Assembly: GCF_002234675.1 (NCBI RefSeq)
Contig: NC_019869.2
Span: 15,299,015 to 15,363,014 of the forward strand
From: Oryzias latipes
Lineage: Eukaryota; Chordata; Actinopteri; Beloniformes; Adrianichthyidae
Direction of reading: 5' to 3'
DNA: 64,000 bases
The notes under the pieces were generated by a model. The model saw only the letters and a list, made by a program, of their open reading frames with translations, did not search any database and was not told the DNA's origin. This document shows, piece by piece, positions 3,726 to 64,000 of the stretch. The stretch's first letter is position 1; each line of letters starts with the position of its first letter. The position numbers and the translations under genes are program-made.

Positions 3726-5090
3726 TAAGACCATCTGTTTCCACCATAGACGCTCCATCACGCACACTCTGTTAATATCTACAAAATAACAGAACAATTC
3801 CACTCACATTTCAGTTTAACATTGAACATGTCAGGTAAATGCCAGCAACATTCCTTTTTTTCCCTCAGAAACTCCAAATCCATCAACCCATCCTTGTAGC
3901 TTTTTATAAATGTTTCATTGAATCCATCCTTTTATTCAACATAGGCGCATGGTTTTGTTCACTTAGTAATCATTTCACAATTTAAAAACATCAATAAAAT
4001 CATCAGTAGAATCGTGGGACAAGAACAGGAGTCACTCATGACAAATTACAATAAAAAATACTCTCTAATTGCTAAGTCAATGGCAGCTTAAGCATTTTTT
4101 TTAATTATTAGTTTTTAAATTAACATTTAATTTGGTGTCTTAGAAGGTCTAAAAATATGTTGGCTGCACTTTACTGAGTATATGGGTGTTGTATTGATTT
4201 CACTAATTATAATTTCACAGGCAAAGACAGTTACTTCCAGGAAAAAAAAGTAACTTTGGGTTGATTTGGTTTGATTTGACAAAGATTTCCCCGTAAAGAT
4301 ATTAAACACACAGTAAATATCTCATTTTTTTTCATTGTTTGGGGCTAAAACTTCCATGTAGCGTCAACTTTGAGTTCAAAGATTTTTTACTAATCCAATT
4401 GTTTACTTTTATGTATATTTTCAGGTAAATTTGTTGGCCAAAAATAATAACCATAAAGAAGTAACAGCGGGAGCTGAAAAAAGGGATCAGGAGCATCACA
4501 CTTTAAAATAGAAAAAAAGAGTTTAATTTTTTTCTGCTCAGCAGATTCCTTGCTCTAGAACTCCCTATGGTTTTTGTTTTTTCCAAGTCTCTTTCTTCTC
4601 ATTGAATCCTGAACCCCAGCTTTCACTGACTCGGGTGAGTCCTGCTATTCTTTCCATGTTCTGCCTCTTTTATGACTTCCTGGAAGAGTCTTGTTGTGTT
4701 CCTGGAGTCGTTTGAGTTGGTTGGTCACCCCGAAGGTTCTCCACTGTTCCAGGTTTTCTCCATTTGAGGAAAACAATTAAACTGGTTCTATGGAGTCATA
4801 AAGCCGCTGAAATGCCTCTGTGACATGCCAGGTACTTTGTTTTTGAAGTTTTTAGACACCTTCTGTTGAAGAGATTTCTTGTTTCTACAGGCCTGACAGA
4901 GATAAGGTTTGATTGATTAAGTGACTCTTCTTTGAAGATTCAGCAAAGGGGCAATAACTTTTTCACAAAGACCCAGTCTGGTTTCAACAGCTTTATTTCC
5001 CTCTTTATAAATAAAGTAAACATAAAAAACATTTGTTTTAATCTCTGGGATTTGTTCTGTATGTAATTACTAAAGTGGGACAGAAATTTT
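3726..5090. other. Intergenic DNA, 3' side of cacng6
   Basis: AT-rich unique sequence with no supportable exon. On the minus strand a further poly(A) signal for cacng6 is possible at 4992-4997 (TTTATT on the plus strand). Confidence 0.5.
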
Positions 5091-5094
5091 CATT

Positions 5095-5100
5095 TTTATT
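5095..5100 (-). terminator. Candidate cacng6 poly(A) signal
   Basis: TTTATT on the plus strand reads AATAAA on the minus strand, about 200 bases after the cacng6 stop codon. It gives a plausible short 3' UTR; a second hexamer lies at 4992-4997. Confidence 0.4.
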
Positions 5101-5300
5101 AAGGTAGCAAGGCACTTTTTGATATAAAAAATGAGAATAGGGGGCAAATGCAGGGCTGCAGCTACAATGGTTCAGAGAAATACTTATCAGTTCCTCTAGG
5201 GTCAACAGAGAAGTTGAACTCTGCAAAAACCAGTCTGGAAAACATTTAGCAGATCCTCTGCTCCTAGAATCCTCTGCAGCTAGAACTGTTTTCCCCATTT

Positions 5301-8300
5301 CTAGCTGCCACTGTCCTTGTGTGGGAAACACCTCTGCCAGGGGCTGCAGGGCAAAGCCAGCAGCAGGAAGAAAACGCCGCCCACAATGAGAATGGCTCCA
5401 GCACAGCCGATACATGACACGGACCAGGACAGCTCGTGGTGAAGAGGAACGGTGTGATCACTGGCCAGGAACGCCAGGATGGACTGGTGGAAGACGACAA
5501 TGGCCAGGAGCACCAGAACCCCTAGAGGAGGGCCCAGACGAGGCGGGGAGGGGGCACATAAGCAACTCTCCGATTTCAAAGATTTCCTTAGCGGCTGCTT
5601 TTACTCACCTGACAGAATAAAGCAGATAGACGCGGGCTTAAGGAAGAACAGGATCTCCTTACTGAGAGCCATGCCGATGCATATGGTCCCCATCACCATC
5701 AGGAACAGACTGAACAGGGACAGCATTGCTGCCGCTACATTTAGATCTGATCAAGAGACAAGGACAGCATTAGTGTCTGCTTTTCACTTTATTGCCTCGC
5801 ATAGCTCCAGTGAGTGTGCAGCATGTTAACATGAAGCTGCGAGCGGAGGGAGAGGTTAGACAGCAGCTCAGAAACACTTGAACGCAGCGTGGGAGGAATA
5901 CATTCGAAGTAGACAGGCTGAAACGGCGCAGGGGGGAGGTCACAGAGAAAAAAAGAGAGGGATGAACAATGGGAAGGGGAAAAGAGGACTGTAAGCAACA
6001 GCGTGCAGAAGGAGGGGTACACTGAGGAGGAAGGAGGATGATCAAAAAAAATCAGTGGGTGGGTGGGGTTGGTGCAGCGGCTGCGGCCGGGAGAACCAAA
6101 AGAGTGGCATGACTCACTCCTCTGTGTTGTCTTCTGAAACATCACAGCGTTCTCTCCTGTGGTGAAAAACTTAAAGTAGGTGCAGTTTGATTCTGCAGAA
6201 GAAGAAAAATAGAGGAGGGAGCTCTCTTAATCTGCACAGTCTTATTGAAATTCATGGAGTCACATTTGTCAGACTCAAAAAGCCTTTCTTGTTCTCCATC
6301 AAACATTCACAATGTCAAACACAAGCTCAAAGGGGGCACAGCTTCCTGTTCATTTTAGCTGTCCCCCATGCCTTTCAGTAATACGGTAAAGCAGTCAAAT
6401 GGATTGTGACACCTCCATTAGTTTGTTCCCTCATTTGCAAACACCAGCTAGGAACATGTGCACACGTCAATCCTGATTTGTGGGATAGGAGCTGATTTTT
6501 CTCCCGTTTATTTTAGCAGAGCAGCTCAGGCTTCTCCACACAAACCTGGTCCAAGTTCCAGATAAATGCACATTTAGGTTATTATAGTGTATGGAATTTG
6601 CCACATGCAGCAAAATAATTAAAAGAAAACACCATATTTGAAAATGTGGCACATTTTGTTTTCTCAGCTCAAGTAAAATCTGTAGTTTTGTCCCATTTTT
6701 AACAACAATCCCTGTGATCTTTTCTTTTTAAAGCCTCACTCCAATCATCTTTTGATCTATTGTAAAAACGTTCCCAGTGGTCTTTTAATTATGATTGTGG
6801 ATTTTTTTGCCAAAATGTTTAGTTTTCTCTGACATTCTGCAGAATGGTAATAGTTTATCAGAAATTCACCTACAAGTTGGTGGTAAGCCTGTCCCCATTT
6901 TCTACCATCCCTTTGGCTTCACTCTCTCCTGCTAGCAAAAACGGACGGGCAATATTGGAGCTAACCAGCTGTACAGTATTGAGCCAAATGCCATCTCGGA
7001 TGTGGAAAACGTAGCACACATGGATCTAGTTGTCTATAAGTGGTTGCATGACTGGACCAGATAAGGAGCATGTGGCCCACCGGCCCACCATCTACAGGCT
7101 TTTTCCAACTGCATTTTTTTATCTAATCCTGATTCATAATGATTTTTATGAAGAAATACTCAAAAATGCAACTTTAAGCTTAATTGTTTTATATATTATG
7201 TCCGCCATCATGAGAAAAATCCCGCGTGAACATGTTAAAAACACCAAAACACAATTTTCATGGGAGTGGGTCTCATTGGCTCTTTATACCCAATTTTTAC
7301 TTAGAAAACATATTTTTTTCTCCAACAAAAGAAGTGCTATGTGCTCCTGAAGCGCTAGTCCTCTGATCAGTTTTACCTTTCAGGGTTTAAATGCTGACTT
7401 CAATACGATGTGTTAGAACCTTTCTTTTTTTTTTGTTTTCATCTTTTAAAAATAGAAATATAAAACAGATTAAAATTGGCTGTTCCAACCAGTCAAACTG
7501 TTTCTCTACCACTCACTTTCTCAACCACAGCTGTCCAAGCTTGTACGCTTGACACATGTCCAGTCATCCACTGTAACTCTCAATCACACTTTCAAACCTG
7601 CAACAGATCAGTCAGCAGACATAACAGACACAAATCCAGCCAAGCAGTCAGTGAGACTTCCGTCACCTCCCGGCAGCTCAGCGGGTCCGCAGCTCTCTCG
7701 TTCTGGGTCAATGTCAGCTACCCACAGGGTCTTGGTGCAGCCCTTCCACAGGCCCAAGTGAGCAGTTAAACAGGACTGCAAAGCAAAGGTCCAAGAGGAA
7801 AAGGTTCAGGAAACCGATTCCTTGCTGAAGAACAGGGGTCGGGAACCTATGGCTCGCGAGCCATATATGGCTCTTTTGATGGTCACATCTAGCTCGCAGA
7901 CAAATCTTTAATTTTAAAATCTTTTTTTCAGTAGACCAGTCCTTCTCAGGCGCACAGTAGTAGCAGTGTTTGGAGAGAAAAAAATCTGCGCCAGCAATCA
8001 GTTTACTATTATCTATTATATCACAGAGTTTTTAATAGCCTGAAAACTGTGAAATGACGTCCCTGCAACTGCACGCTCCCGTCTCTTAGAAAGAGCGCGC
8101 AGCTGGAGGGACGGGATGTGTGAGGAAGAAAGGGGGGAGGTAGTGGACACAGGCAGCAAGGTGCACGGATTGTCATAACTTAAAACACGCAGCCCGTCAC
8201 ATACTGCAGCGTGTGAGTGTGTGTTTGGCTCCACGTATTCATGTGAGCAATCTTTCTCAAATCTAAAGAACATTCACACCAACCTACAATCACATCAAAC

Positions 8301-9812
8301 GGATGGAAGTCTCAACGCCTGCATGAAGCTTAAACTCACCAAGTATCAACCAGACTAGACCATCAGTAAAACCATGCAGCACCAGAAGTCATAATAATGG
8401 TAATAAATACTCATCATTTATCAGCACCAGCATAATAATGTTATTTAAAAGAATCCACATATGTATTCTTCTTTAAAAGTGTTAAAATTATATCAAATGC
8501 ACTCATTCACTTGTATTTTTACTTTTAAACATATTGTAGCGGATTGAGTTGGACTGGGTGGCTGTTAGGTGGGATTCTAAGTTCCGGAGTTCATTGAACA
8601 CATTATGCAAAGATCTGATTGGCCCTCAGTTCTGTAGCTCAGCCTGTCGTTGGGGAGTTTGGACCAATGGGGTTCATCTATGGGCCGAATAAGGGAAATA
8701 GGAGGGCTGTTGCTGCAGTGAGGGAATTAAAAATTGGGAGGAGCGCTCTCGGCGGGACAGATTGAGGAGTTGCCGAAATAGTTGTACGGCGTTGGTTACA
8801 GTCTACAGTAACCAGAATAAAGAACCTTAAAGGAGGTTAAGTCTCCGTGCCTCAGTGTGGGAAAGGGACGCTTCATTATTGTATGGCTCTTTTGAAATTA
8901 CATTTAAAAATATGTGGCGTTTATGGCTCTCTCGGCCAAAAAGGTTCCCGACGCCTGCTTTAGAAGCACACCAAAAATAATCCGACACCCGTGGTTCAAT
9001 CAAAAAAACATGTTCGAAAAGCAGAGAGTTCACGTTCACCTGATTGTTGTAGAAACTCTTTGAGGGTGCCAGCTCCACCCAGAACTCTGTCCCGACACCA
9101 AGAACAGTTAGGACGACGCCCACAATGGCCACGAAGAACGCCAACTTGATCTGCAGAGAAACCAAATATTGGATTTATCCAATGAGAAAAATGTGATGGA
9201 TTCCAATACAATAAAAATGCTTAAAAACAGGCAACTATGTGTTTATTTGGAATACATGTTAACATTTTGAATCCATCAGAACCACAATCAGAGTCTAGAT
9301 TCCCCCCTTTATGTTGATTTCTTGGTAGGGTGGACTCTGATGTGTTTGTATTACTAACTGCTGTTAAAGTTTGAGCTCTTGCTGGCAGCACTTCATCAGA
9401 ATTTCCTTGCAGAGACTTGAATTTGTTGTTCAATCAGTTGCAACAGGTTGTCCAGATCCTGATGATCCTGGATAAATCCTGGTTGCGTTCTTGGAGGAAG
9501 TTTGGTCAGCTCATCCAGAAGTTTCTCCATTTAAGGATAATAGTTCTCAGAAAAAAGTTTCAGAAATGTTTGCAATACAAGACGATGCAATGCAAGACTA
9601 ATCACCTTTCCCTCCTGAGCCTCACTCATGCCATGTCCCATAGACGTTGTCCTGCGGCGCTTTCCACCAAAAGTGCTGCGACCCCCCATCAAGCTGGTCA
9701 AACCTCCTGCACCCGACGCCGGTCCTCCTCCTGCTAACCCTCCAGCTGTCCCCGCCGCCCCCGGGGCCACCATTCGGCCTTCTTCATCACTCACAATAAA
9801 GGTTGACCACAT
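5301..9812 (-). CDS. cacng6: Calcium channel gamma-6 subunit
   Basis: A four-pass claudin-fold auxiliary subunit of voltage-gated (skeletal/cardiac type) calcium channels. Minus-strand coding exons are 9606-9812, 9040-9150, 7667-7775, 6118-6192, 5609-5746 and 5301-5521. All junctions are GT-AG and phases match, giving 861 nt and 286 aa (human CACNG6 is about 260). The start MWSTF is chosen because it matches mammalian MWSNF; four in-frame codons lie upstream. A Gly/Ala-rich cytoplasmic N-terminus of about 70 aa is followed by TM1 (IKLAFFVAIVGVVLTVLGVG) and TEFWVEL. The extracellular loop has GLWKGCTKTLW, CGPAELPGE and the sequon NCTYFKFFTTGEN. TM2-TM4 and a short tail ending FPHKDSGS come next. 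The family motif CEAAH reads CLTAH here, while the conserved GLW is kept. There is no PDZ ligand as in TARPs, so a calcium-channel role rather than an AMPA-receptor role is expected. The paralogue label (a or b) cannot be decided. Confidence 0.93.
6725..7080 (+). mobile_element. Dispersed MITE family B, copy 1
   Basis: This lies in a cacng6 intron. It starts with CTCACTCCAATCATCTTTTG, related to the inverted end (GGAGTGGGTCT) of the copies near 24.7, 50.2-52.3 and 61.4 kb. A protein-like frame at 6951-7061 (NIGANQLYSIEPNAISDVEN) is shared in altered form with two other copies. Confidence 0.6.
7833..8957 (+). mobile_element. Fossil hAT transposon in cacng6 intron
   Basis: The ends CAGGGGTCGGGAACC and GGTTCCCGACGCCTG are near-perfect inverted repeats of the hAT/Charlie type. 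The flanking octamers CTGAAGAA and CTTTAGAA look like a diverged 8-bp duplication. Around 8230-8355 the plus strand still encodes a hAT transposase C-terminus (STYSCEQSFSNLKNIHTNL, then TDGSLNACMKLKL), matching the CEQxFSxxxxIxT dimerisation motif. The rest of the transposase is lost, and an LTR-like segment at about 8536-8872 interrupts the 3' part. Confidence 0.75.
8536..8872 (+). repeat. Possible solo LTR inside the hAT
   Basis: This stretch is unlike the surrounding hAT sequence. It begins TGTAGCGGATTGAG, contains an AATAAA at about 8816-8822 and ends near GGGACGCTTCA. TATTG occurs at both edges and could be a 5-bp duplication, although the TG/CA ends are then offset by two bases. The solo-LTR reading is tentative. 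Confidence 0.3.
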
Positions 9813-12660
9813 GTTGTGTGTCAAAGCAATTTAATGACAGATGATTGCTCTGATGGAATTTAAGTCACTGAAAGTATACAGGAAGGAAAGGAGACAAATT
9901 GTGTTCCTTATTCAGTCAGTCAGCATCAAACAACATCAGTCTATTATTTTATCCGCTAAAGGGCCAATAAATGAAATTTGATGAAAAATTAAATCCACAG
10001 CTTGTCTTTGCGGCAAAAAATAATGTCTGCAAAACTAAACAAGAAAGATCAAGGTGGGATTCTGGCTTTCCTTTAAAAACTGTTTCATAAAAAATGGAGT
10101 ATGGTAGAAAAAAATTCCTACAGACCAATTCATTATCATGAAAGAAAAAACAAACACTTCATTGAAGAGCTGGGGGGGGACTCTTCTGCAAAGCTGTGAA
10201 GAAAAAAAGCAAAGGCAACAGTTAGAAAATGTAATGTTTTTTTTTGTTTTTTGTTTTTTAAGAAGCAAAACTTGAGAGTTTTGTGAAAAAATGTTAAGTA
10301 AGCAAACATCTGCAGATTAGACAGAAAAAAATTCATTATTATAAAATAAATTACAAAAATGACATTGCTCCAAATCATAGTAAAAAAAAAAATCAGTAGA
10401 GAACACAACCACAGACCAGTGAACAACATGGCTGCTTCCATTAACATTGATGCTTTTTTTTTGTTTGTTTGTTTGTTTAATGACAACCTGCATAAGCTTC
10501 ATTGATGCAGGTCATGCAGCAGTAATTATTCTACCTACAGTAACAGACAGAAAAGGAAAAAAAATCTTCTTTTTCTAAGATGTTGCCATACATGCATATA
10601 CAGTATGGCATGTGTTAAGTTTTAGATGAATGCCTTGGTAACCATAAAAAAAATGCACTTATCTGTGTCTTTTTTAAGGGTTTAGTTTTGCGACTTATTT
10701 TGGTCAAATGAAAACCTCACAAATAAGACATTTATTAAATGGTGGTATTCTTTACAAGTTGTAAAAATGTTGTATTCGTTTGTTTACAGTAGTTTGCAGT
10801 TTTCAACAATAAAACTTTCAGTTGTTTTCATTTCAAAATTTTTATATATTTAATCAATGAGCAGGAATTTCAGGTCCAAAGGGCAGCCTTAAAAACACTT
10901 AACATGATGGCCTTTGTTTAGACTTCTATTTTAAGATGGTATGTGACTGCACGCATAAAACTGTGAGTTGGAATCAGGTGTTGCTTTCTATTCTCAGAGG
11001 CCGCAGCTCTTGTCAGGTTCAAGTCATAAACAATGATGTGATCAGAGAGCCTCTGTATTTGAAGGGGATGCACAGATGCAGCGAGGGTGAGTTAAATCTT
11101 GACTGTGAATGAAACAGCTGCTGTGCTCCTCTCAGACAGAGTGACAACAGACTTGTAATCCCGGGTTCACGCCACGTCTTGTTAGCAAAAATGAAAGACA
11201 TCCCATTGAGACGGCCCTTTGCAACAAGAGAGCTTGTTTTGCAAGCAAGATAACTAGCTATAAAATAATTATGTGAAGATACTAAAATAAAGACCAAAAA
11301 ATACCATATTTATCAATTGTCTCCAGGAATGTTTATCAAAATGTATTAATTAATTTTTTTATACATCATGGACAAATGAAAATTACAACACCAAAGTTAT
11401 TATTTAACAATTTGTGAAATCAAAAACAAAAATACATGGACTTCCATTCATTACAAGTTATTTTCTGTTAGTATAAGGGAAGTCTCATATCTGGTTACAA
11501 GTCATGTTCAAGTCATGAATAAGGAGGAAACCTGGTCCAAGTCTTTGGACCAATTCTTTACATCTTTGGTCACAATTGTGACTTGAAATGTTTCAAGTAC
11601 CCCTGAAACTAATTTCTCACTTTTCAACCAAACAATCTATGATCTTAATAAAGAATCAATATTTAGCACGAGTTGAGACAAGCCTTGAGTCTTGATGGGG
11701 TAAACCCAGTTTACTTTTTTAGTCACAGGTCCTCAGGTCAGGTTTAAATTTTGACTTGAGTCGTGTAGTTAGACGTGCTGGTCTGGGGTAAATTATTCAA
11801 TTCCATGTCCGAGGAACTCTTTACATCTTTAAGGAAATATTCAGTGAAACCTGAAGATTCTGGTTCCAGATCAAAGTTGTGTTACACAAGTATGAAAGAG
11901 CCAGGTCTGATCTTAAGTCAAATGTTAAAAGGATTGCTCAAATATTATAGTTAAATTTTATTTCATAGTCAAATCAAACACAATTAAGGCCAAGTCACGT
12001 CTTCCAGAGAAATAGTCAAACTTGGGTTTTGGGCCACAAAGCCAAGTTAGCTTTCTTTACATAATACCTTCTATTTAAAAAGTTTATATAAAGGGCTTTA
12101 AAAAGGCACAAAAACTTTCACAGGAAACTTTCAAAATAAAACAAAATCTAATGTAGCTACATTAGATTTAAAAGTGAAAGTAAAATACTTAAAGTAAAGT
12201 TTAAACCATCTCTTGTCACAAGTCTGAGTTAAACCTCAGGTACTTTAGCAAGAATTTAAGTCAACATCAAAAAACTTGTTGCCTTGTGTGTTCTTGGTAA
12301 GCAAACTCAACATGAAAGTTGATTGTGTCATTTCTTACTTAGAATGTGCCCCATCAGCACCGTGGTTTTGTCTATTTTAGATCATTTATTCCAGACAAGT
12401 GATGTAAAAACATTTAAGGAGAGAAATATCTTTTCACAGTACTGCACTATTCAAAAAACTAATATAAAATTGCAAAGCTTTGCCTAAAATTTATATTTCT
12501 TCTGCTGTCTGAGAAGATGAAATTGCAATGTGCCTATCAAACTAATAAAATTTGAATGTGTTTTGTTTTTTAAATAGCATAGCAAATGTCACTGAATAGC
12601 ACAATAACTTTTTTGGAAGAAAAATCAGAAAATACCACAACTGTGATTCTACATTTATAG
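9813..12660. other. AT-rich flank upstream of cacng6
   Basis: The first few hundred bases should hold the cacng6 5' UTR and promoter, but I see no clear TATA or GC box. From about 11480 to 12260 the motif CAAGTC/AAGTCA recurs irregularly, like a decayed tandem repeat. No exon is supportable. Confidence 0.4.
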
Positions 12661-27700: not shown

Positions 27701-30316
27701 GATCAGCTTTTTAGAAGAGTAAAATAGTCAGGACTTGCAGAAGTCAAACCCTAAAGTAACAAATGCATCAAACACTGCCTCTGAGAGAGGATCTTTCTGA
27801 TTCTACATAAATAAAGGTAGCTTCACTTAATGCAGTTCAATTTGAACAGAATGAGCTCTGAAATTAAAAAACAACCTGGGTTTGATTTGAACGTGGGAAA
27901 AACATGTTTTTATAAGACATTAAGGACAGAGTGAAGCATCACAATGTGAAGCGGTTTGTTTCAAAGCTGGATCTTTAGTCCAAAAGTCTTGCGTCAGACT
28001 AATCCATACTGAATGCCTGAAATGTCTGAGGGTATCTCATATTATTCTTCCCGAACAACGTTTTTCTGTGACATCACCCGTCATGATGCTGCTTCACTTG
28101 CAGAGGTGCAAATTCTCACACCTGGATGAGGTCAGGGTGAGGCGGAGCTTAAGGAAAGTTGATCTGTTCTCCTGTGTTATCATGTGAGCATGAATCCATT
28201 TTGCTCAACAAAGATGGGAATGTGTTTGTTTTTTTGGACCTGCACACACTGCAGTGGCTGGCTCCACTTCATCTGTACGGGTGGCAGTTTCAGGCAGATC
28301 TAGGACCTTGTTGCCAATCCCTCATTAAAAAGCATTAAATCCAACCAATCCTATTAGTCTGTCACCCCTTAGGGGCACATGAGAGGCCAGGAGACATATT
28401 CTCCAGTCTGCTGTGGATCTTCTTAGAGGCACGAGCACAAACAACATTGTTCATTCAAACAAAGAACAGTTCACTTTAATACTGTAAATGCGCAAAAAGC
28501 AAAAGCTCCGCAACTTTTTCTCAAATAAAGGAGAAAGTGAAGGATAAGGATAATGATTTTGAAAAACTTTTAAAAAAGAAATCCATCCACATTTGTTTGT
28601 TTTTTTTGACTGACAATCTTTCCAGTTTGTAAACTGAGTCAACATCTCAACTCACCACGTCAAACAGCTGATGTGAGACAGCTCTGTTGAGATGAATGTG
28701 TTCTTGACTTTTTGACGAGTGCTTTTACACGTGACTCACTCAGGTATCACGTCTCTTTAATCTCTGCTAATGTTGCTTTTAAGTATCAGACAGCATGGTT
28801 CTCTGTCAGATTAAAGCTCTCAAGTACTGCCTGAACTCACATCCCCTAAACGCCTCGTTAAAAGAGACTTAAAGGAGCGACCTTGAACGAGAAAACACCG
28901 CCTTTGAGTCTTTTAGCAAAATAGCATGAGTTTGAACTATATGTTGGACAGAATGATTGATGACACCAGGAAGCAAAGGACAATAGCGCGTAATGCTTAA
29001 AACTCAGTGGCCTTGTGGTGGAGCGTCCACCCTGAGTCTGGAAGGTCACACTTAAAGGTGTGTTAGGACTTATACCTTAGGAATACCAGAGATACTAGAA
29101 GGTTTCTTACACATACCATTTTAGATAAAGGCCTATTAAGCTGTAATTAATGGTTATATCTGGGCTATTACACAAACATGTACATTTACTAGTTTTTTAA
29201 TTATTTTACTTATACTTGAATAAATTATTTTTTCACTCTTCTCTTACTGGTTTTTCCTAACTATGTCACTTATTAAAAGTTTCCCAAGTTTCAGTGGAAA
29301 TAAACTTGATCATTCTTTGATCTCCACATTTAGGTGAATGAAAGACAAAACCTGCTTGTTGTCTGTGCAGCCTTTCAAAATAAACTTTTGGGCAATATCT
29401 GTAAGTGATATGGAAGGAATCTCCCTTTACTTTAGATGGAATGGTGTTTTATTTTGAAAATTCTATGCCCTAAATTTAATCTCTTCTGTTCTATTACATT
29501 GATAAACTAGCATTTCATGACTTTGAGTCTCAAAATTGCAAACAGTTTGGACACCACTTTTTTCTTAAAAACTTACTGCTCCAACTTGTAAAAACTGGAA
29601 AAATGTAGTTGAGCTTTCAGACTGACTTTGCTGGTAACCCCTCCCTTTATCCTTCCTTTAGTCACTTCCTGTTCTCTACCTTAAAGTAGTTTACCTTCTA
29701 GGTAAAGGCTTTGAACAGCTTTGAAAACTGATAGTAAGCAACACATTTGTTTATTCTGGAAACCAACAAACTTTAAGGGCTTTTAAAATGTAAAAACCCT
29801 TTGATGTCTTGGTTTTTAAGGTCTTTTCTTTCTCTATCCAGCATGCAAAGTCCCTCTTGGATTTCACGGACAATTAGAAGCTGAAGTTAAAAGGATTAAA
29901 CTCAGCTGATGATCACAGGAAGTCCTTGGAACTAAGAGCGATCACTTGTCTGGCAGTGGTCCCACATCTTTTCCATCAAGACGGCAGACGGACCTCTGAG
30001 GAGACCTCAGCTCAAACCTCAGAGCTTGTCATCCTTTCAGTAAGGCCAAGAAACCTTCCTAATAAAATGAGATTATTCTGAAAGCAAACACAGTTTTGCC
30101 AAAAAACTTTGCCACTAGAACATTTCTAGGGACTTGGATTTGTTTTATTTTTTTGTCCTTTTTGATGTTGTCTGAGCAGAACGATCTGCTGAGCATTTGC
30201 TGGGATGCACCCTTCAATCCAACATGAATAAGCAACATTCAGGGTTTATTTAGCAACAGATATAAAGTCAAAGAAAGCCATAACGTAATTCCTAATTACT
30301 TACACTCCAAGCAAAG
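24704..30316. other. Intergenic region before the pentraxin gene
   Basis: AT-rich sequence with short open frames only. Besides the SINE fragment at 29003-29050 I find nothing supportable. A non-coding first exon and promoter of the pentraxin gene may lie in the last kilobase but cannot be placed. Confidence 0.35.
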
Positions 30317-33300
30317 ATGACCAGAGACAGTCATCCTCCCAGTCTCATGCATTCCCGTGTATTGCACCACCAATGGATTGGAGTCTCCCTGGGGTTTGTC
30401 CTCCCCGTTTTTCCCCTTTGTCCTCTTCTTTTGTGTTACTTCCTGTCATGTGCAGCAGGAGCTGGTAGTTTACCAGGCATAGAATACAGTTATGGCATTA
30501 GCCCCAAGTTTGTTTGCACCCCTGTTCCTCCAGAGGCGGATCCTAGCTGCTATTCCCCACCTACTGTGCCCCATGGACCCAGTGGTAGCTCTCATGATCA
30601 TGGTGGGGGCACCCATCGAAGCATGATGTCGGATGAAGCTAAGGCCACCATCCTGCACCTTCGCGAAAGCCTTGTGAGGCAGAAGGAAACCATCCTTGAC
30701 CAGCGGGAGACCATCAGAGAGCTGACCGCTAAGCTCACCTTGTGCGAAGGTTTTGGGAGTCACCATAGTGTTGGACATCATGAAAACCACCATGAAAGTC
30801 ACCACGACCCTCACCATGACACCCACCACAGTGGCCACCATGAGGACCATCATGGACGCCATGGCAGCCACAGTGGCCCTTCTTCGCTGCACCACAGTCC
30901 CTCAGCGCATGATCATCACCCCTCCCACGGCAGTCACAGACCAGACCTTCATCACAGGAAGGGATCATCGCACAGCAAGCATAGCTCCTTCTCCCCTGAG
31001 CAGACGGGAAAGACCCTGCAGACTCTGAAAGAGAGGCTGGAAAACCTACAGGTAAGATTAGCTCAGTGATTTGCAATTTTCTCAGCTCATATTCAAATCT
31101 GCATACATCAAGAATGCTTCCTGATACAATCCCACAAAGGATCAAACAAGGATCAAATCAGAGCATCATGGGAGAATTCCCCCTGACAGATAAGGGGTCA
31201 TTAACAGCATAAATTGAGGCACAGCTCAGGGTTACTGTGACCAACTTTAACTGTCAGATATTTGAAAAAAACAACAAGTTCCTCAACAGACAATGTTTCC
31301 CTTCTGACCCAGATAAGGAAAAGGGGTTTACAAGGGGAGAGGTTGATGGCTCAGGGTTAACTGAAGATTGCTTTAGCATAGATGTAATGCAGGAGTGTTG
31401 GAACCAGTAGTTGCAGTGGCTTTATCTAAGGTGGTATAAAATGTTCCTGAACTTTAGGCAGGTCTGTTCCCTCACCATGTTGAACTTTTACTTAAAGCTG
31501 AAGATCAGATGCAGTTTGACCTGCAGGCATCAACACGTCAGTGATATTTACGGTGGCCGAGAGATGCAAGACAAGTTTACATTTGAGATACAACGACAAC
31601 AATTGAACAAATACTGAAACACAACAGCAAATCACAGAACAAATTACAGATTCCTGAAAGAAAAAAGCAAATCACGGAACACATTACCAAATCCAGAATC
31701 ACAAAAGCAATCCCGCTACAAATGACCAAATCCAGAAACACAATAACGAGAGCGGAGACACGGCTTTTAACAGAAAGGGACGTAATATAAAACCAATCGT
31801 GTTTGACTTTTTTAAAGTTTTTTACTGTTTTCTTTATGTGGACATTATTAATACATGAAACAGTCCAAAAGCATTTTTTTCTGAAATTGTATTATTACAA
31901 TAAAAATTATAACAATGTTTAGTAGGGTAAAGTTCTTGCTTCACTTCCGGTAGTAAAGGTAATCCCTTTCCGTTAAACAGCCAGCCGGCAAGTGCAAAAC
32001 AGAAGATAGAGAAAAAATTAAGAAAGGGAGCTGCTGCTAACGGAAAGGGAAATAGTCTGAATGCATAAGTATGCGTGTGTGAACATTAGTTGTATTGTGT
32101 ACATGTTGACACGTTTGTATGTGAACATTTTTGAAGCTAACAGGTATGTTTATAATATTTGAGTGTGTGTGTGTGGACAGGCCCCACCCCTTCTAGATTT
32201 GTATTACATCTGAACCTTACCGTAATGATTATAAACATCCAGCAACTTGATGCTTTATGATGCTTCATAGTCTTACCCCTTCTCCCCCCCATTCTGTAAG
32301 CAGCCTTCTATCCCCCTCTCTCTAACATCACTCTCTCTTCTTCCCTCCTTTCCTTTTCCGGTCCAACACCAAAATGTTACAAATATGATCAATATGAACA
32401 AAGTTCGGCCTAAAAAATAATAAATAAATAAATAAAAATAATAGTAAATAAATATGCCTGTGTGAAAGTTAGTTGTTTCATGTCCATGTTTATCTGTGTG
32501 TATGTGACCATTATTGGAGCCAAAAGGTATGTTTGTAACATTTGAGTGTGTGTGGACAGGCCCCGCCCCTTTTAGATTTGTTCTACATCTAAACCTGAAA
32601 GTAGTAACTATAAACTTTCAGCAACTTATGGCCTTATGCTGCTTCATGATTTCACCCCCCCCCCTTTATAATCACCCTCCTATCTCCCCCTCTCTAACAT
32701 CCCTCTATCTTCTTCCCTCCTCTTCTTTTCCGTCCTTCCAACGAAAAAATTTTACACATGTAATTAATATGAATAAAGTTTTGAATAAATTACAAAAGGT
32801 AAAGAAAATTTTGTGGAAAATGCCAGCGCCGGGAATATCTTGAAAAGTTCAAGAATTTGAAGGAAAGAAAGTCATATTGGAAAGAGAGCTGAACATTTTA
32901 ATAGTTGAATGGTTAAAATAGCTAAAAAATTATAGGAGTTAAGCAGCAAAAAATAGTCGAAGATACTATAATAAAGAAAGAGAAACAGGAAAACAATGGG
33001 CTGAATGCTTTATAGCATTCAACGCATGCTATTTATAGCATTCAACCAATAACTTAAAAAAAAATCATACACAATTGGTTTTATATTGTGTCCCTTTCTG
33101 TTAAAAGCCGTGTCTCGGCTTTCGTTGTTGTGTTTCTGGATTTTGTAATGTGTAACAGGGTTGTTTTTGGTAAATTAGTATTTGGTAATTTGCACCCGAA
33201 TTTGGTTTTGTCTTTCAGGACACTGTCATTTGTTCTGTGATTTGCGGTTGTGTTTCAGTATTTGTTCATTTGTTCTGAGATTTGTTATTGTTGTATCTTA

Positions 33301-36300
33301 AATGTAAACGTGTCTTGCACCTCTTGGCCACCATAGGATATTGGACCCATAATGCATTGTGTTAACCAAATTTATAGGCAAAATTCCTAGTTCAGCATAT
33401 TTCAAACATATTTGACAACAACTGAACATGTTCAGGGCTGCTGAGCTCTCTCATATGAATCCTAATTCATATGAATGAAGGGCTCAGAGTAAAGCTTTCT
33501 CGGTCAAAACTATTCCAACCTCACCCCTAATTTGGAGAATTTGAACATATGAGGTCTTCAACATAAAAATCAAGATAAATTTCAAATTTACTAAAAAGAA
33601 AAAAAAAAAACATTCCATTTTGGTTTAAGCAAACATATAATGAAGAGAAGCTGCAACCTAAATAATATAATGTCTTTGGCTGCAGTGGTTCCAATTAGTG
33701 GGAATTTTTACTTTTAAGGTTGAGAAATAGTATGTAGGAGATACACTAATCCATTTTGAAACAATGAGTGTATATTCATTTTTTTACACCATTCCCAACC
33801 TAAGTAATGTTACACTGGTAGAAGAGTGTTAATTAGGCAGCAATATATGTATATTGGGGTCAGAAATGACTTAAGTTTCTCACTGAAAAGTAACGTGATT
33901 CAGTTTTCGTCGGTTCACACATAGTTCACTGGTAAATGGATTGATTAAAAATGATTAAAAATGTCACAATTCTTCAGTCTCTGTAACAGGTATTCAGATA
34001 GTCGGTTTTAAAACAAGTCATGAGTTTTTAAAGTCAAATATGTTCTTTTTCTGACATTTAGATGATGCCGAGGGGTTACTTTTAAAATTTGAACCATACA
34101 GGTCATGGAACACTCATTTACTGGGAATTCGTGGAAAACATCCCTTTGATCTTTCTTGAAGGTGTGAGATAAAACACAATAGAAACTGAGGTTTACCTAT
34201 CACCACCTTCTAAGATGTCTATAGCATCAGTCTGTAGTCATGCACTTAAGGCCACTTGTCAGCTTCACCTTCAATTACTTTTATCCTTCCTGAGGGGCTG
34301 TTAATCATGGCGTGTGCTGGTAGGGGACAAAGCCGGATTTGCTGGTGAGGATGACAAAAGGGGAAGAAAATAAGTGGTGGGTGGGAGTGGCCGGAACCTT
34401 TGTTCTGATTGGCTGCTTTTAGTTTGATCCAAAGTTGCTTGTAAGTTGCATCTTCTTTCAAGTTGCATCTTGATATGTAAGTTGCATCTTCTCTGAATTA
34501 AATTTTTTCTGTTAATGTTGTTTTTGTGTATGTACAGTTTTCTTGGTGTTTTGAAAGGTTCTTTCTACATAAAATTTTCTTTTGTTAATATTAATATACT
34601 TATTTTTTTTTTATTACCTCCACTGTTTTTTCATCTTTAAGAAAATCTAAAATGATATTAAAGAGTGTTGTTTTTTCCTAAACTTTTGCAAACGGAATAG
34701 CTGCTTGATGTGAAGGCATTTTCCAATAAGTTAAGGTTATGGTTTAACATTGTTTATCTGATTATGTTGAATTGCTGTCTTTGAGTTGGAAAAAGGCACC
34801 TTTATAGCTTACAGACATTTTGTCTAAGCAACACCAAAACAATAAAAATGCATAACCTATTCAGAGATGTGTGCAACAGTCTGTTCTTTTTTGTGTAAAA
34901 ATAATAAAACTGGATAGGTAAATGTAAACTTATGTTGCACAGAAAAGCTGTTATTCTCACTGTCCTGTGAGGATGTACATTCCAACATTAAATACTCACC
35001 AACTTCAACAACACATTTAGTTCTAATATACTTGTAATTTGTGGAAACGTTAGTTTTTTCAAAGAATGTGGGCAAATTAAGCCAAATCAAGTGAATAAAC
35101 TGTATTGAACAAACCGAGAACAAATGAATGAGGACAACTTGTAAACAAACTAAACTATAATAATTGTTCTTCAAACAATTTTGTCCTAAAATGTAACTTC
35201 AAAACAAATATTTTTGTGTTTACAGGCTAGAAATTCTTCCAGCTCATATTCCAGCTCCTTAAGACAACTTCTTCAGCGAAAGATCAATGCTCTGGAGGAG
35301 CAGTTGCACAGATTCCATAGAGATCCCCATAGTGACCCTCACAGAGATCATCATGATGACCATCACGAAGATAACCATGGCGGTAGCCACCATGACGACC
35401 ATCGGGATGACCATCACGATACTCATCATGGTACCGGTCACCATGAAGACCTGCACGGTCTAGGCCATCATGAAGACCACCACAGTAGCCATCACAGTGA
35501 CCACAGTAGCCATCACACTGACCACAGATACCACAAGCCAAACAACCACCATAATAATCATCACTATGACCACAGCTATGACTGGCACCATGGTCGGCAT
35601 TATGGTCACCATGGCAACCACCCAAGCAGCCACCATGAGGACCACACCAATGATCATCATGCTGGCGATCACCATGATGATCATCAAGATTATTACCATG
35701 AACATGGACGCAATGGTGACCACCATGACGATCACCATGACGATCACCATGACAACCACCATGAAACCAGCCACTATGACCAGTACCATCAACCCCAACA
35801 CCTGCCCTACAGCAGCAAGGAGACAATTCTGCAAGGTCCTGGTCACAGCAAGTTGGAGACAGTTCTAGGTCAATTACACCCCAGCGGTGGTCATGGTATG
35901 TACACTCACACTTCAAAAAAAAATCAAACATAAAAAACTTTCGATTTGTAAACTGACGATTAGAGAGAAAATCCACTTTTGTTATACAGTTTAAGGGTTT
36001 GAGACACAATAACACAAGTACAATAGCATTTTGTCTTTATTCAGAGTTGCTATTTGTTTTTTGCCGTGTTACTTATGCCAAATTGATACTTTTACAACTG
36101 TTAGTTGTGCTTATAATTTCTTATAGAAGCCCAAATACAAGCTAAAAAAGTAGCCAGAGTCATCTAAGCATGATGTACCATCGTCCGATTTTTTTCCCCC
36201 CTCATTTTCACCATGACACCAGGAAACAAACCGAAGCTGAAGAGCCCCAGTGCTTTTCTCCTTGACTTCCCAATGAGGACCAACTACATGTACGCCAAGA

Positions 36301-38869
36301 TGAAGCGGTCTTTGGTCAATGAGATCTTTGCCATGACTTTGTGCCTGTGGTTAAAGTCAGGCGAGAGTTCTGGCCTTGGAACTCCCATCTCCTATGCCAT
36401 TCCTGGACAAGCCAACGAGCTCGTACTCATTGAATGGAGCAACAACCCAATGGAGCTTCTTATCAACGATAAGGTAAAAATAAAAAGCACTGCTAGATTT
36501 TGCACAAGTCCAAAATAGAACAGAAATAGATGTGTAACTATCACATAATAACACCCATGACCGTTTTGGAAACAACAGGGACATCTGAATGGTTTTGCCT
36601 TTTATGTTGAACAACCCAGAAGATAGTTTCTTCCTTTGTTTGAGATGTGTCTGCCAGAAAACAACTGTGTGTTACACTGACCCACAAACAAACTGTTGAC
36701 GTACTCAGCTATTTCAGTGGCCCCCTAATCTTTTTTTCCCTGTAAAGCTGTGGTGTCTTTTTCTCACCAAGTGGAACCAAGAAGGTCATCTTTTTCCCCA
36801 CCGTATTTCCGTTGTGTGTGCAGCAAGCACAACAAACAAGCAAAGCAATTAATCTCGTTATTGTCTCATGGTGATTGACCTAATTGTCTGTAGGAGACGC
36901 CGATGGGATAAACCATCATGTTTGTTGTCTGGGAGTCACAGACTTGGTCGTCATCAAACTAATAGGTGACACAGTTAAAGGGTTTTGTTCAGAGAAACCT
37001 GTTACCATAGTGATGGGATGATAAATGGAGTCCTAAAACAAGAGAATTTAAACTGAACTATATCTTCTTTATTGTGTTTTTGTTTTACTATCTATGTTTA
37101 GGCAGCTACTATGCCAATAACAGTGACGGACGGAAAGTGGCATCACGTGTGCGTGACATGGTCGACACGTGATGGCGTCTGGGAGGCCTACCAGGATGGG
37201 GTAAAGAAAGGTTCTGGGCAGAACTTATCAGCCTGGCAGTCTATTAAACCAGGGGGGATCTTCATCCTGGGTCAAGAGCAGGTGAAATAAGCAGCACACT
37301 CTTTGGGAATACATGATCAGATAGCCATTCCTCCTCTATGAACAAATCAGAATAATAAAAATACAGTTTTTGCAAAAGCCTCACTTCCTACAAGCTGTGC
37401 TCTTATAAAAAAAATTCTTCTTTTATGGTAATGTTTGTGAAATTTGAGAGGGGCATTTTCCAGCTGGAGATCTATCACCCTGCTTCTGCAGCTGTCCTCA
37501 CCTTGCATCCTGCTGCTTACCTGGATCAGGTGCTTTCACCTGGGTTCACCTGATCCGGATAAGCAATGGTATAGAGATGCCAGGAGAATAAGTATGGAGG
37601 TAGATCTTCACATGCAGGGTTGGGCAGCTTTGTCCATATTTTTTGTACATCTTGTGGACTCAAACTGAAAAACATTTTTTTCTGTTTAGTTTCATATTGA
37701 AGAAGGAATCTGTAGATTTACATAATGGACAAAGACAAGACAGATGAGCTCTGCTCCAAACCAATTGCACATTGGTCACTAATTAGTTCCTATGATAAAG
37801 ATAGTAAGAAATGTTGACTTGTGATAACATAACGTTTTGCTGACTGGTAAGTAAAAAAATGTCCCCCAAACACAAAAATGTGTGGAATTCAAAGTACAGA
37901 ATCATTTCTACTCATATGTTTCCAGAAGTCTTGGAAGTCTGGATGGAATTTTTTTCAGTATGGGGAATTTTTGGAAAATTTTATTTTTCACCCCAACTAG
38001 TTAAAAGTTGATAGCCTTGAGCTACGTTCACACCACCCTCGGAAATACACTTTCAAGTGACAACTTTCACTGAAAAGTCCAGTTAAACATGTGTTTCTGG
38101 CTTCCACTTTCAAAATTCTTGCATTTTCAGGCTCTACATGCAAAATGTGCAGTCATTGAATGTGCGTTGAAAGTTAAATCAGTCGAACTTTGACCAATCA
38201 GGGACAGCTTTGGTATTGATATACGGATGGCATTCCTTTTACTTTACAGAAGTGCAACTCGTTTCAAAATTGATCGTGGAGGAGAAATAAGTAATTGCGG
38301 ATTGTGACGGGATGGAATTATATGATGTAGTTGGCGGACATGCACTAGTATCGGGTAGCAACATTTCAGTGTGAACATCATGTGCAAAACCCACGTTTAA
38401 GAATGCACTTTTACTGCATTCTTAAAATTGTATCCCATGCCTGGTGTGAGCATAGCATAAGAATGGAACCACATTTATATTTAATGCTCTATCTTGGATA
38501 AATATTGGTCTAGACACAATCAAGTTCCCCCAGGATTTTTGCTTCCTGGATTTAGTATCACTCAATTTTTGATCTTATTTAAATGGAGGTAATTCAGCCA
38601 CACTGTAGCTGCAAATCCATTCTACAATTTATGTGAAATCCCTTTACCTCAATCCACAGGACACTATGGGAGGTCGCTTTGACATCACACAGTCCTTCAT
38701 GGGAGAGATGTCGGATCTCCAGTTCTGGTCCAGGGTTCTGACAGCGGATGAGATCCACATCCAGGCCACATGTGGAGGTCACCTCGTAGGTGACGTCATG
38801 TCATGGTCTGAAGAATTGGTGGAGCTCCACGGGGGCCTCAATGAGCTTCCCTATGAGCCCTGCCACTAA
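30317..38869 (+). CDS. Histidine-rich neuronal pentraxin
   Basis: A secreted or membrane-anchored long pentraxin of the NPTX1/NPTX2/NPTXR group, which clusters AMPA receptors at synapses. Coding exons are 30317-31051, 35226-35895, 36223-36473, 37102-37281 and 38660-38869; phases match, giving about 682 aa against about 430 usual. Residues 21-48 form a signal or anchor segment. SPKFVCTPVPPEADPSC and the coiled-coil KETILDQRETIRELTAKL are diagnostic of the group. A first His-rich tract (residues 148-222) follows, then TLQTLKERLENLQ and LRQLLQRKINALEEQL. A 163-residue His/Asp tract (275-437) then replaces most of the second coiled coil; KLETVLGQLH survives after it. The pentraxin domain is intact: MRTNYMYAKMKRSL, the pentraxin signature HVCVTW, DGVWEAYQDGVKKGSG and ILGQEQDTMGGRFD. 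The start could also be Met11. No premature stop or frameshift, so it looks functional. Metal binding by the His tracts is inferred. Confidence 0.9.
30758..30982 (+). repeat. His-rich tract 1 in pentraxin exon 1
   Basis: About 75 residues built on CAC/CAT codons mixed with Glu, Asp, Gly and Ser (for example HHENHHESHHDPHHDTHH). It sits between the two coiled-coil segments, where NPTX1 has a short Gly/Ser linker. Confidence 0.9.
31552..33332. mobile_element. Large foldback element in pentraxin intron 1
   Basis: Inverted arms of about 250 bases begin GGTGGCCGAGAGATGCAAGA on the left and are mirrored at the right end (TCTTGCACCTCTTGGCCACC). Their inner ends read AAAGGGACGTAATATAAAAC and GTTTTATATTGTGTCCCTTT. 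The core holds two head-to-tail units of about 390 bp (roughly 32060-32440 and 32448-32815). Each has GACAGGCCCC, a CT-rich block and ATATGAACAAAGTT/ATATGAATAAAGTT, like the 3' tail of a fish non-LTR retrotransposon. No open transposase frame. Confidence 0.65.
33333..35225. other. Rest of pentraxin intron 1
   Basis: Unique AT-rich intron with an A run at about 33598-33610; no further feature was recognised. The acceptor at 35224-35225 (TTTTTGTGTTTACAG) joins Gln245 to Ala246 in phase 0. Confidence 0.5.
35313..35801 (+). repeat. His/Asp-rich tract 2 in pentraxin exon 2
   Basis: About 163 residues dominated by His, Asp, Ser and Asn. A 12-bp codon unit (GATCACCATGAC) is nearly perfectly repeated at about 35725-35760. 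Because of the CAY/GAY composition, other frames and the antisense strand are also open over hundreds of bases; those are by-products, since only the frame used here splices to a pentraxin domain. Confidence 0.9.
38021..38456. repeat. Dispersed repeat family A, copy 2
   Basis: Located in pentraxin intron 4. The ends GCTACGTTCACACCA and GGTGTGAGCATAGC are inverted repeats (about 13 of 15). The interior is collinear with 12660-13210, including the CTAGTATCGGGTAGCA block. MITE-like and non-coding. Confidence 0.65.
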
Positions 38870-38879
38870 ATCTGGAACG

Positions 38880-38885
38880 AATAAA
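38880..38885 (+). terminator. Pentraxin poly(A) signal
   Basis: AATAAA lies 11 bases after the stop codon and would give a very short 3' UTR. No other AATAAA follows within the next few hundred bases, although variants may be used. Confidence 0.4.

Positions 38886-49497: not shown

Positions 49498-64000
<14,503 letters not shown>

Follow-up and report, generated by a model that had tools for sequence, protein, structure and literature searches.

How a neuronal pentraxin could accommodate two long histidine-rich tracts within its stalk, and whether such tracts serve the protein or are the tolerated product of repetitive DNA, are the questions raised by a gene of the medaka Oryzias latipes. Neuronal pentraxins cluster AMPA receptors and act as oligomers, as passages of one study describe (PMC12799932). 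Here we report a computational analysis of this gene, which lies within a 64,000-nucleotide stretch of contig NC_019869.2 (the window; all nucleotide positions are counted from its first letter). Judged from its sequence, the gene is a complete neuronal pentraxin whose stalk bears two His-rich insertions.

When spliced from the sequence, five exons with GT/AG borders and phases 0, 1, 0 and 0 yield a single open reading frame of 681 residues plus a stop codon. An in-frame stop at 30293 precedes the start codon, the stop codon of the pentraxin frame ends at 38869, and an AATAAA signal lies downstream at 38880. The exons and tracts are as follows.

Exon 1, 30317–31051, forward strand: start codon, hydrophobic leader, two cysteines (Cys67 and Cys78), coiled coil 1 including Cys143, then His tract 1 and the beginning of coiled coil 2
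His tract 1 (residues 146–225), 30752–30991, forward strand: 29 His among 80 residues, by translation; AlphaFold2 places a helix at its first residue only
Exon 2, 35226–35895, forward strand: His tract 2, flanked by coiled-coil 2 sequence (before it the remainder of the first half, after it a vestige of the second)
His/Asp tract 2 (residues 276–436), 35316–35798, forward strand: 60 His and 30 Asp among 161 residues, by translation, spacing counts and simulations
Exon 3, 36223–36473, forward strand: first part of the pentraxin domain, by splicing and domain matches
Exon 4, 37102–37281, forward strand: middle of the pentraxin domain, by splicing and domain matches
Exon 5, 38660–38869, forward strand: last part of the pentraxin domain, followed by the stop codon, by splicing and domain matches

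The initial annotation had described an intact five-exon neuronal pentraxin with His tracts of about 75 and 163 residues, adding some 250 residues. This description agrees with our model: the exons spanning 30317–38869 splice in frame, the tracts measure 80 and 161 residues by the borders set here, and the protein exceeds human NPTX1 (432 residues) by 249 residues.

The predicted pentraxin domain assigns the gene to the neuronal pentraxins. Among solved protein chains, the C-terminal region of about 200 residues matches NP2 (291 bits, E = 3.9e-86) and NP1 (290 bits, E = 8.7e-86) best, and the runner-up is a serum amyloid P (SAP)-like pentraxin at 89 bits; the Pfam family PF00354, for which the cut-off is 25 bits, scores 115.7 bits over residues 483–670. 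Compared with the human motifs, the calcium-site motif GQANE is identical and GQEQDTMGGRFDITQ retains E, Q, D, D and Q, which we take to be calcium ligands of the pentraxin domain. In identity to human sequences, the domain stands at 59% to NPTX1, 59% to NPTX2 and 51% to NPTXR, whereas the NPTX1 and NPTX2 domains are 71% identical to each other, and the medaka protein is therefore not simply a near copy of any one of these. A second Pfam match, of eIF-3c_N over the stalk (E = 0.0036), scored 16.2 bits where 24.2 are required, and was judged to be a chance hit of low-complexity sequence. A scan with six peptide patterns found no match to the pentraxin domain in viral contigs. Among the matches listed from the titles and abstract openings of the open-access literature, none was a His-rich pentraxin, although a report elsewhere in the literature is possible; likewise, His tracts go unmentioned in the passages of four open-access papers on teleost neuronal pentraxins.

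An argument for function had also been drawn from the preservation of the frame across all junctions and through more than 480 bp of repeat. All junctions are in frame. The open frame through the repeat is weak evidence, because tract 2 is open, wholly or in part, in other frames as well: a forward frame at 35464–35868 (134 codons) covers about two thirds of it, and on the reverse strand the frames at 35284–36036 (250 codons) and 35460–35864 (134 codons) cover the whole tract and part of it, respectively. Open reading frame length was thus dropped as evidence.

The tracts could in principle be spliced out of the mature mRNA by alternative splicing within exons 1 and 2, which we regard as highly improbable. 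In-frame dinucleotides are available for such events, with 16 GT in exon 2 (from 35286), four GT in exon 1 (from 30520) and 12 AG in exon 2 past 35256. Exon 1 also has a weak in-frame donor (cut after 30673, score 2.0), the use of which would cost the protein not only tract 1 but also half of coiled coil 1, and an in-frame AG before 35820, just beyond tract 2, has 9 pyrimidines of 16. Against this stand three features that say more than the open frame does. On a rough donor matrix, all internal donors of exon 2 score 1.5 or less, compared with 3.0, 3.0, 3.5 and 7.0 for the real ones. The four internal acceptors of exon 2 with at least 11 pyrimidines are all out of frame (the real acceptors have 10, 10, 11 and 13 of 16), and because the 670 nt of exon 2 are not a multiple of three, skipping this exon would shift the frame. 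Splicing around a tract is therefore predicted to be unlikely.

Stalk architecture and histidine spacing

Tract 1 occupies the linker that separates the two coiled coils; tract 2 lies inside coiled coil 2. We compared the stalk with those of human NPTX1, NPTX2 and NPTXR, using a MAFFT alignment. Coiled coil 1 is identical to these sequences at 24, 24 and 16 of 41 positions, respectively, and the first half of coiled coil 2 (residues 226–273) at 26, 20 and 12 of 47 positions. Coiled coil 2 does not continue at full length: its first half is followed by the 161-residue interruption, beyond which alignment of the second half is weak and limited to about 16 residues (7 of them identical to NPTX1). 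The earlier statement that the second coil is mostly replaced is thus apt for the reduced second half, but not for the first half, which is retained.

The stalk contains three cysteines, Cys67, Cys78 and Cys143. In the MAFFT alignment, Cys67 and Cys143 each share a column with a cysteine of human NPTX1 and NPTX2, and Cys78 falls about one column off the second of theirs. An NSS glycosylation sequon at residue 248 is offset by one alignment column relative to the NSS of NPTX1 (residue 154). Neuronal pentraxins are thought to form inter-chain links through three cysteines in coiled coil 1, according to passages of PMC12799932.

In AlphaFold2 predictions, for which exons 1 and 2 were supplied separately and without alignments, exon 1 forms helices at residues 106–146 and 227–244, with a mean pLDDT of 90–93 for residues 111–140 and lower values at the ends. 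Exon 2 forms a helix at its residues 10–32 (residues 255–277 of the protein) and no later helix of at least four residues. Within the tracts no helix of at least four residues is predicted, and confidence is low there. This pattern suggests that, in the stalk, long disordered segments probably connect a series of helical pieces.

The tracts differ in composition. Tract 1 contains 29 His, 5 Asp and 3 Glu among its 80 residues, and tract 2 contains 60 His, 30 Asp, 6 Glu, 12 Gly and 5 Pro among 161. The whole protein has 109 His among 681 residues, compared with 6 of 432 in NPTX1 and 8 of 431 in NPTX2, as counted in the human sequences. Given the presence of Gly and Pro, long helices are unlikely within the tracts even with metal.

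We counted His pairs at 12 lags per tract and compared the counts with those of 5,000 shuffles. In tract 2, i,i+4 pairs number 39 (21.5 expected) and i,i+8 pairs 33 (21.1 expected), neither of which was reached in any of the 5,000 shuffles, and there is a single i,i+2 pair where 21.8 are expected. Tract 1 follows the same trend, with 15 i,i+4 pairs (9.7 expected; 59 of 5,000 shuffles), 16 i,i+8 pairs (9.3 expected; 4 of 5,000) and one i,i+2 pair (10.0 expected). The placement of His in the tracts is thus nonrandom for its count, and its rhythm is HHxx with a period of four. This spacing is a new observation, going beyond the initial annotation.

Repeat decay and selection on the tracts

A 12-bp DNA repeat alone would produce a rhythm of period four without selection, and the silent third codon base can help to discriminate between the two. 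At a distance of 12 bp, agreement within tract 2 is 0.61, 0.61 and 0.43 at codon positions 1, 2 and 3, respectively. At the other offsets tried, it is 0.09–0.49 at position 1, 0.51–0.63 at position 2 and 0.29–0.49 at position 3. The background at position 2 is high because His and Asp codons share that base, and since the 12-bp value is close to this background, position 1 alone carries the period in tract 2. In tract 1, the contrast between codon positions is absent (12-bp identity of 0.38, 0.32 and 0.34).

Third bases give a more composite picture of tract 2. Among His or Asp codons for the same residue four apart, the third base is equal in 24 of 54 cases (26.9 expected), which is the level of the shuffles and rules out a recent pure 12-bp DNA repeat as the source of most of the tract; its His codons are mixed (27 CAC and 33 CAT). 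Eight codons apart, the third base is equal in 30 of 42 cases (21.0 expected; 10 of 2,000 shuffles), and between neighbouring codons in 7 of 27 (13.4 expected). Tandem Repeats Finder (TRF) reports short tandem arrays with units of 12, 21 and 24 bp. The agreement at eight codons, the alternation between neighbours and these arrays together indicate that part of tract 2 retains a memory at the DNA level.

We simulated the neutral decay of tract 2, starting from each of three 12-bp units and giving the transition rate three values (nine settings of 150 runs each), stopping each run once its third-base decay equalled that observed. Without slippage, the 1,350 runs ended with no more than 45 His and no more than 23 i,i+4 pairs, short of the 60 and 39 observed; 30 runs were free of stop codons, about 98% having acquired them. 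The lack of matching runs supports selection for His and for its spacing. A second simulation of tract 2, with ongoing in-frame slippage, comprised ten settings, of which two were without slippage, and 1,190 of its 1,200 runs finished. At least 60 His were present in 3 of these 1,190 runs and at least 39 i,i+4 pairs in 7. All successful runs combined a mixed 24-bp unit with one of the two highest slippage rates, 0.1 and 0.2 per mutation; the 12-bp unit reached the observed values in no run, and the zero-slippage settings did so in 0 of 240. The codon pattern of tract 2 is thus hard, though possible, to obtain by neutral repeat decay, and selection on its His and their spacing is favoured, not proved.

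These results bear directly on the possibility that the tracts are a tolerated low-complexity expansion, in which CAY/GAY repeats grew by slippage in the linkers of a relaxed, fast-changing paralogue and act only as a spacer. We consider this somewhat unlikely. Such an origin fits the tandem arrays still present, the third-base agreement at 24 bp with alternation between adjacent codons, the occasional success of slippage from a mixed 24-bp unit and the uniform codon positions of tract 1, as well as the distance of the pentraxin domain from NPTX1 and NPTX2 relative to that between the two. It accords poorly with a 12-bp period that is held at position 1 of tract 2 and lost at position 3, with the mixture of His codons, and with simulations in which, in the absence of slippage, the observed His number and spacing were never reached and nearly all of the 1,350 decay runs gained stops.

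Candidate functions of the tracts

The functional reading that we favour is that zinc or copper cross-links adjacent stalks. On the basis of the sequence and of analogy with known proteins, the tracts may bind Zn or Cu between neighbouring chains and thereby partly replace the reduced half of coiled coil 2, making clustering metal-dependent; we hold this to be plausible, if somewhat short of an even chance. In passages of PMC12799932, neuronal pentraxins form disulphide-linked assemblies, and coiled coil 2 of NP2 forms oligomers of which the trimer is the smallest unit, the others being multiples of it. The medaka protein would be secreted as a disulphide-linked trimer or hexamer, as are NP1 and NP2, and such an assembly would place three to six copies of each tract side by side. 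Pairs of His at i,i+4 could then bind Zn(II) or Cu(II), in part across adjacent chains by analogy with histatin 5, and the metal would join or stiffen the otherwise disordered stalk. In this way metal binding would stand in for part of the oligomerising role of coiled coil 2, the second half of which is reduced, and the strength of receptor clustering would then depend on extracellular metal.

Known systems offer partial parallels. The medaka protein shares with NP1 (NPTX1) and NP2 (NPTX2) the order of its domains, the presence of three cysteines in the stalk, coiled coil 1 together with the opening half of coiled coil 2, and the GQEQD motif in the pentraxin domain; it departs from them in its two additional His-rich tracts and in the reduction of the other half of coiled coil 2. 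Histidine-rich glycoprotein (HRG), the His-rich region of which is regarded as a metal and pH sensor, is similarly secreted and carries a long His-rich region, but its domains are unrelated. The likeness in composition to HRG proposed in the initial annotation holds broadly, but the pattern differs, as HRG has GHHPH pentads and the medaka tracts have HHxx tetrads. Histatin 5, a short salivary peptide without homology to the medaka protein, has i,i+4 His sites, and its zinc is believed to bridge two monomers, each of which contributes two His, as passages of PMC10004757 describe. The prion protein (PrP) octarepeats form a disordered, His-bearing repeat tail that binds copper and zinc and oligomerises with zinc, according to PMC12522110; they are unlike the tracts in their eight-residue unit with one His each, in a zinc-induced shift towards β-sheet and in the absence of homology. 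This β-sheet precedent argues against metal cross-linking, as do the Gly and Pro within the tracts, the occasional matches in the slippage runs, the traces of a DNA repeat, the confinement of the period to codon position 1 in tract 2 and the lack of codon-position contrast in tract 1.

Besides the tolerated spacer, the main rival, and the main functional one, is a pH switch, which we judge unlikely. The tracts would change their charge on passing from acidic granules to neutral extracellular fluid, being condensed or folded inside and extended once released. With textbook pKa values, the charge of tract 2 would be about −25 at pH 7.4, +8 at pH 6.0 and +22 at pH 5.5, and that of tract 1 would go from about −1 at pH 7.4 to +21 at pH 5.5. 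However, such a change is expected of any His/Asp-rich segment, and it needs neither the strict period of four nor the scarcity of i,i+2 pairs. Handling of Ca2+ or polyanions is still less probable, and indeed improbable. The sarcoplasmic histidine-rich calcium-binding protein, which binds Ca2+ with low affinity, provides the model: the Asp/His tract would bind Ca2+ at low affinity and feed the known Ca2+-dependent clustering of pentraxins. The 30 Asp and 6 Glu of tract 2 would suit this role, but the acidic runs are short, and tract 1 has 5 Asp and 3 Glu among its 80 residues against 29 His. The oligomerisation data, as given in passages of PMC12799932, point both ways: Ca2+ drives NP2 lacking coiled coil 1 to higher oligomers, but the oligomers of coiled coil 2 alone are Ca2+-independent, and the authors assign the Ca2+ effect to the pentraxin domain.

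Returning to metal cross-linking, zinc is released by some synapses, and a bolder version can be formulated, which we regard as doubtful. The protein would be a metal-gated synaptic or extracellular organiser, in which part of the trimerisation stalk has been swapped for HHxx sequence and Zn(II) or Cu(II) at synapses reversibly zips the stalks together, setting the strength of clustering; given its position close to a gamma-1/gamma-6-type calcium-channel subunit gene, it may also represent a separate, old neuronal pentraxin duplicate lost by mammals. If this were true, a variant with ordered stalk His pairs would connect AMPA-receptor clustering to synaptic zinc and offer a direct test, and the gene would show how a low-complexity segment that binds metal can take the place of a portion of a coiled coil. 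Another fish neuronal-pentraxin-like gene, zebrafish nptx1l, is expressed in cranial ganglia, the spinal cord and pharyngeal arches, with no expression in the forebrain, according to passages of PMC4690400.

Neighbouring genes and mobile elements

Exons of a calcium-channel gamma subunit lie at about 5038–9830 of the window on the reverse strand; they match solved gamma-1 (3.2e-15) and are related to gamma-1 and gamma-6, and we take the subunit to be gamma-6. Human NPTX1 and NPTXR likewise share chromosomes with calcium-channel gamma genes. In combination with the gamma gene found here, this linkage suggests that the pentraxin gene could be a further old duplicate.

A glucose transporter gene, closest to GLUT3 (2.7e-109) and GLUT1 (1.1e-107), occupies about 56700–64000 on the forward strand and reaches the window end. 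Within it, at 57236–58165 (forward), adjoining open reading frames of 123 and 185 residues had no Pfam match at E 0.01 and look, by eye, like a retroelement remnant. A Tc1-type transposase frame of 301 residues (PF01498 and PF13358) lies at 51203–52108 on the forward strand. Intron 1 of the pentraxin gene contains, at 31549–33335, an element with terminal inverted repeats (arms of 112, 109, 90 and 54 nt, 73–87% complementary), 40-nt repeats close to its termini and, internally, a direct duplication spaced by about 380 nt; the element is likely to be a non-autonomous DNA transposon.
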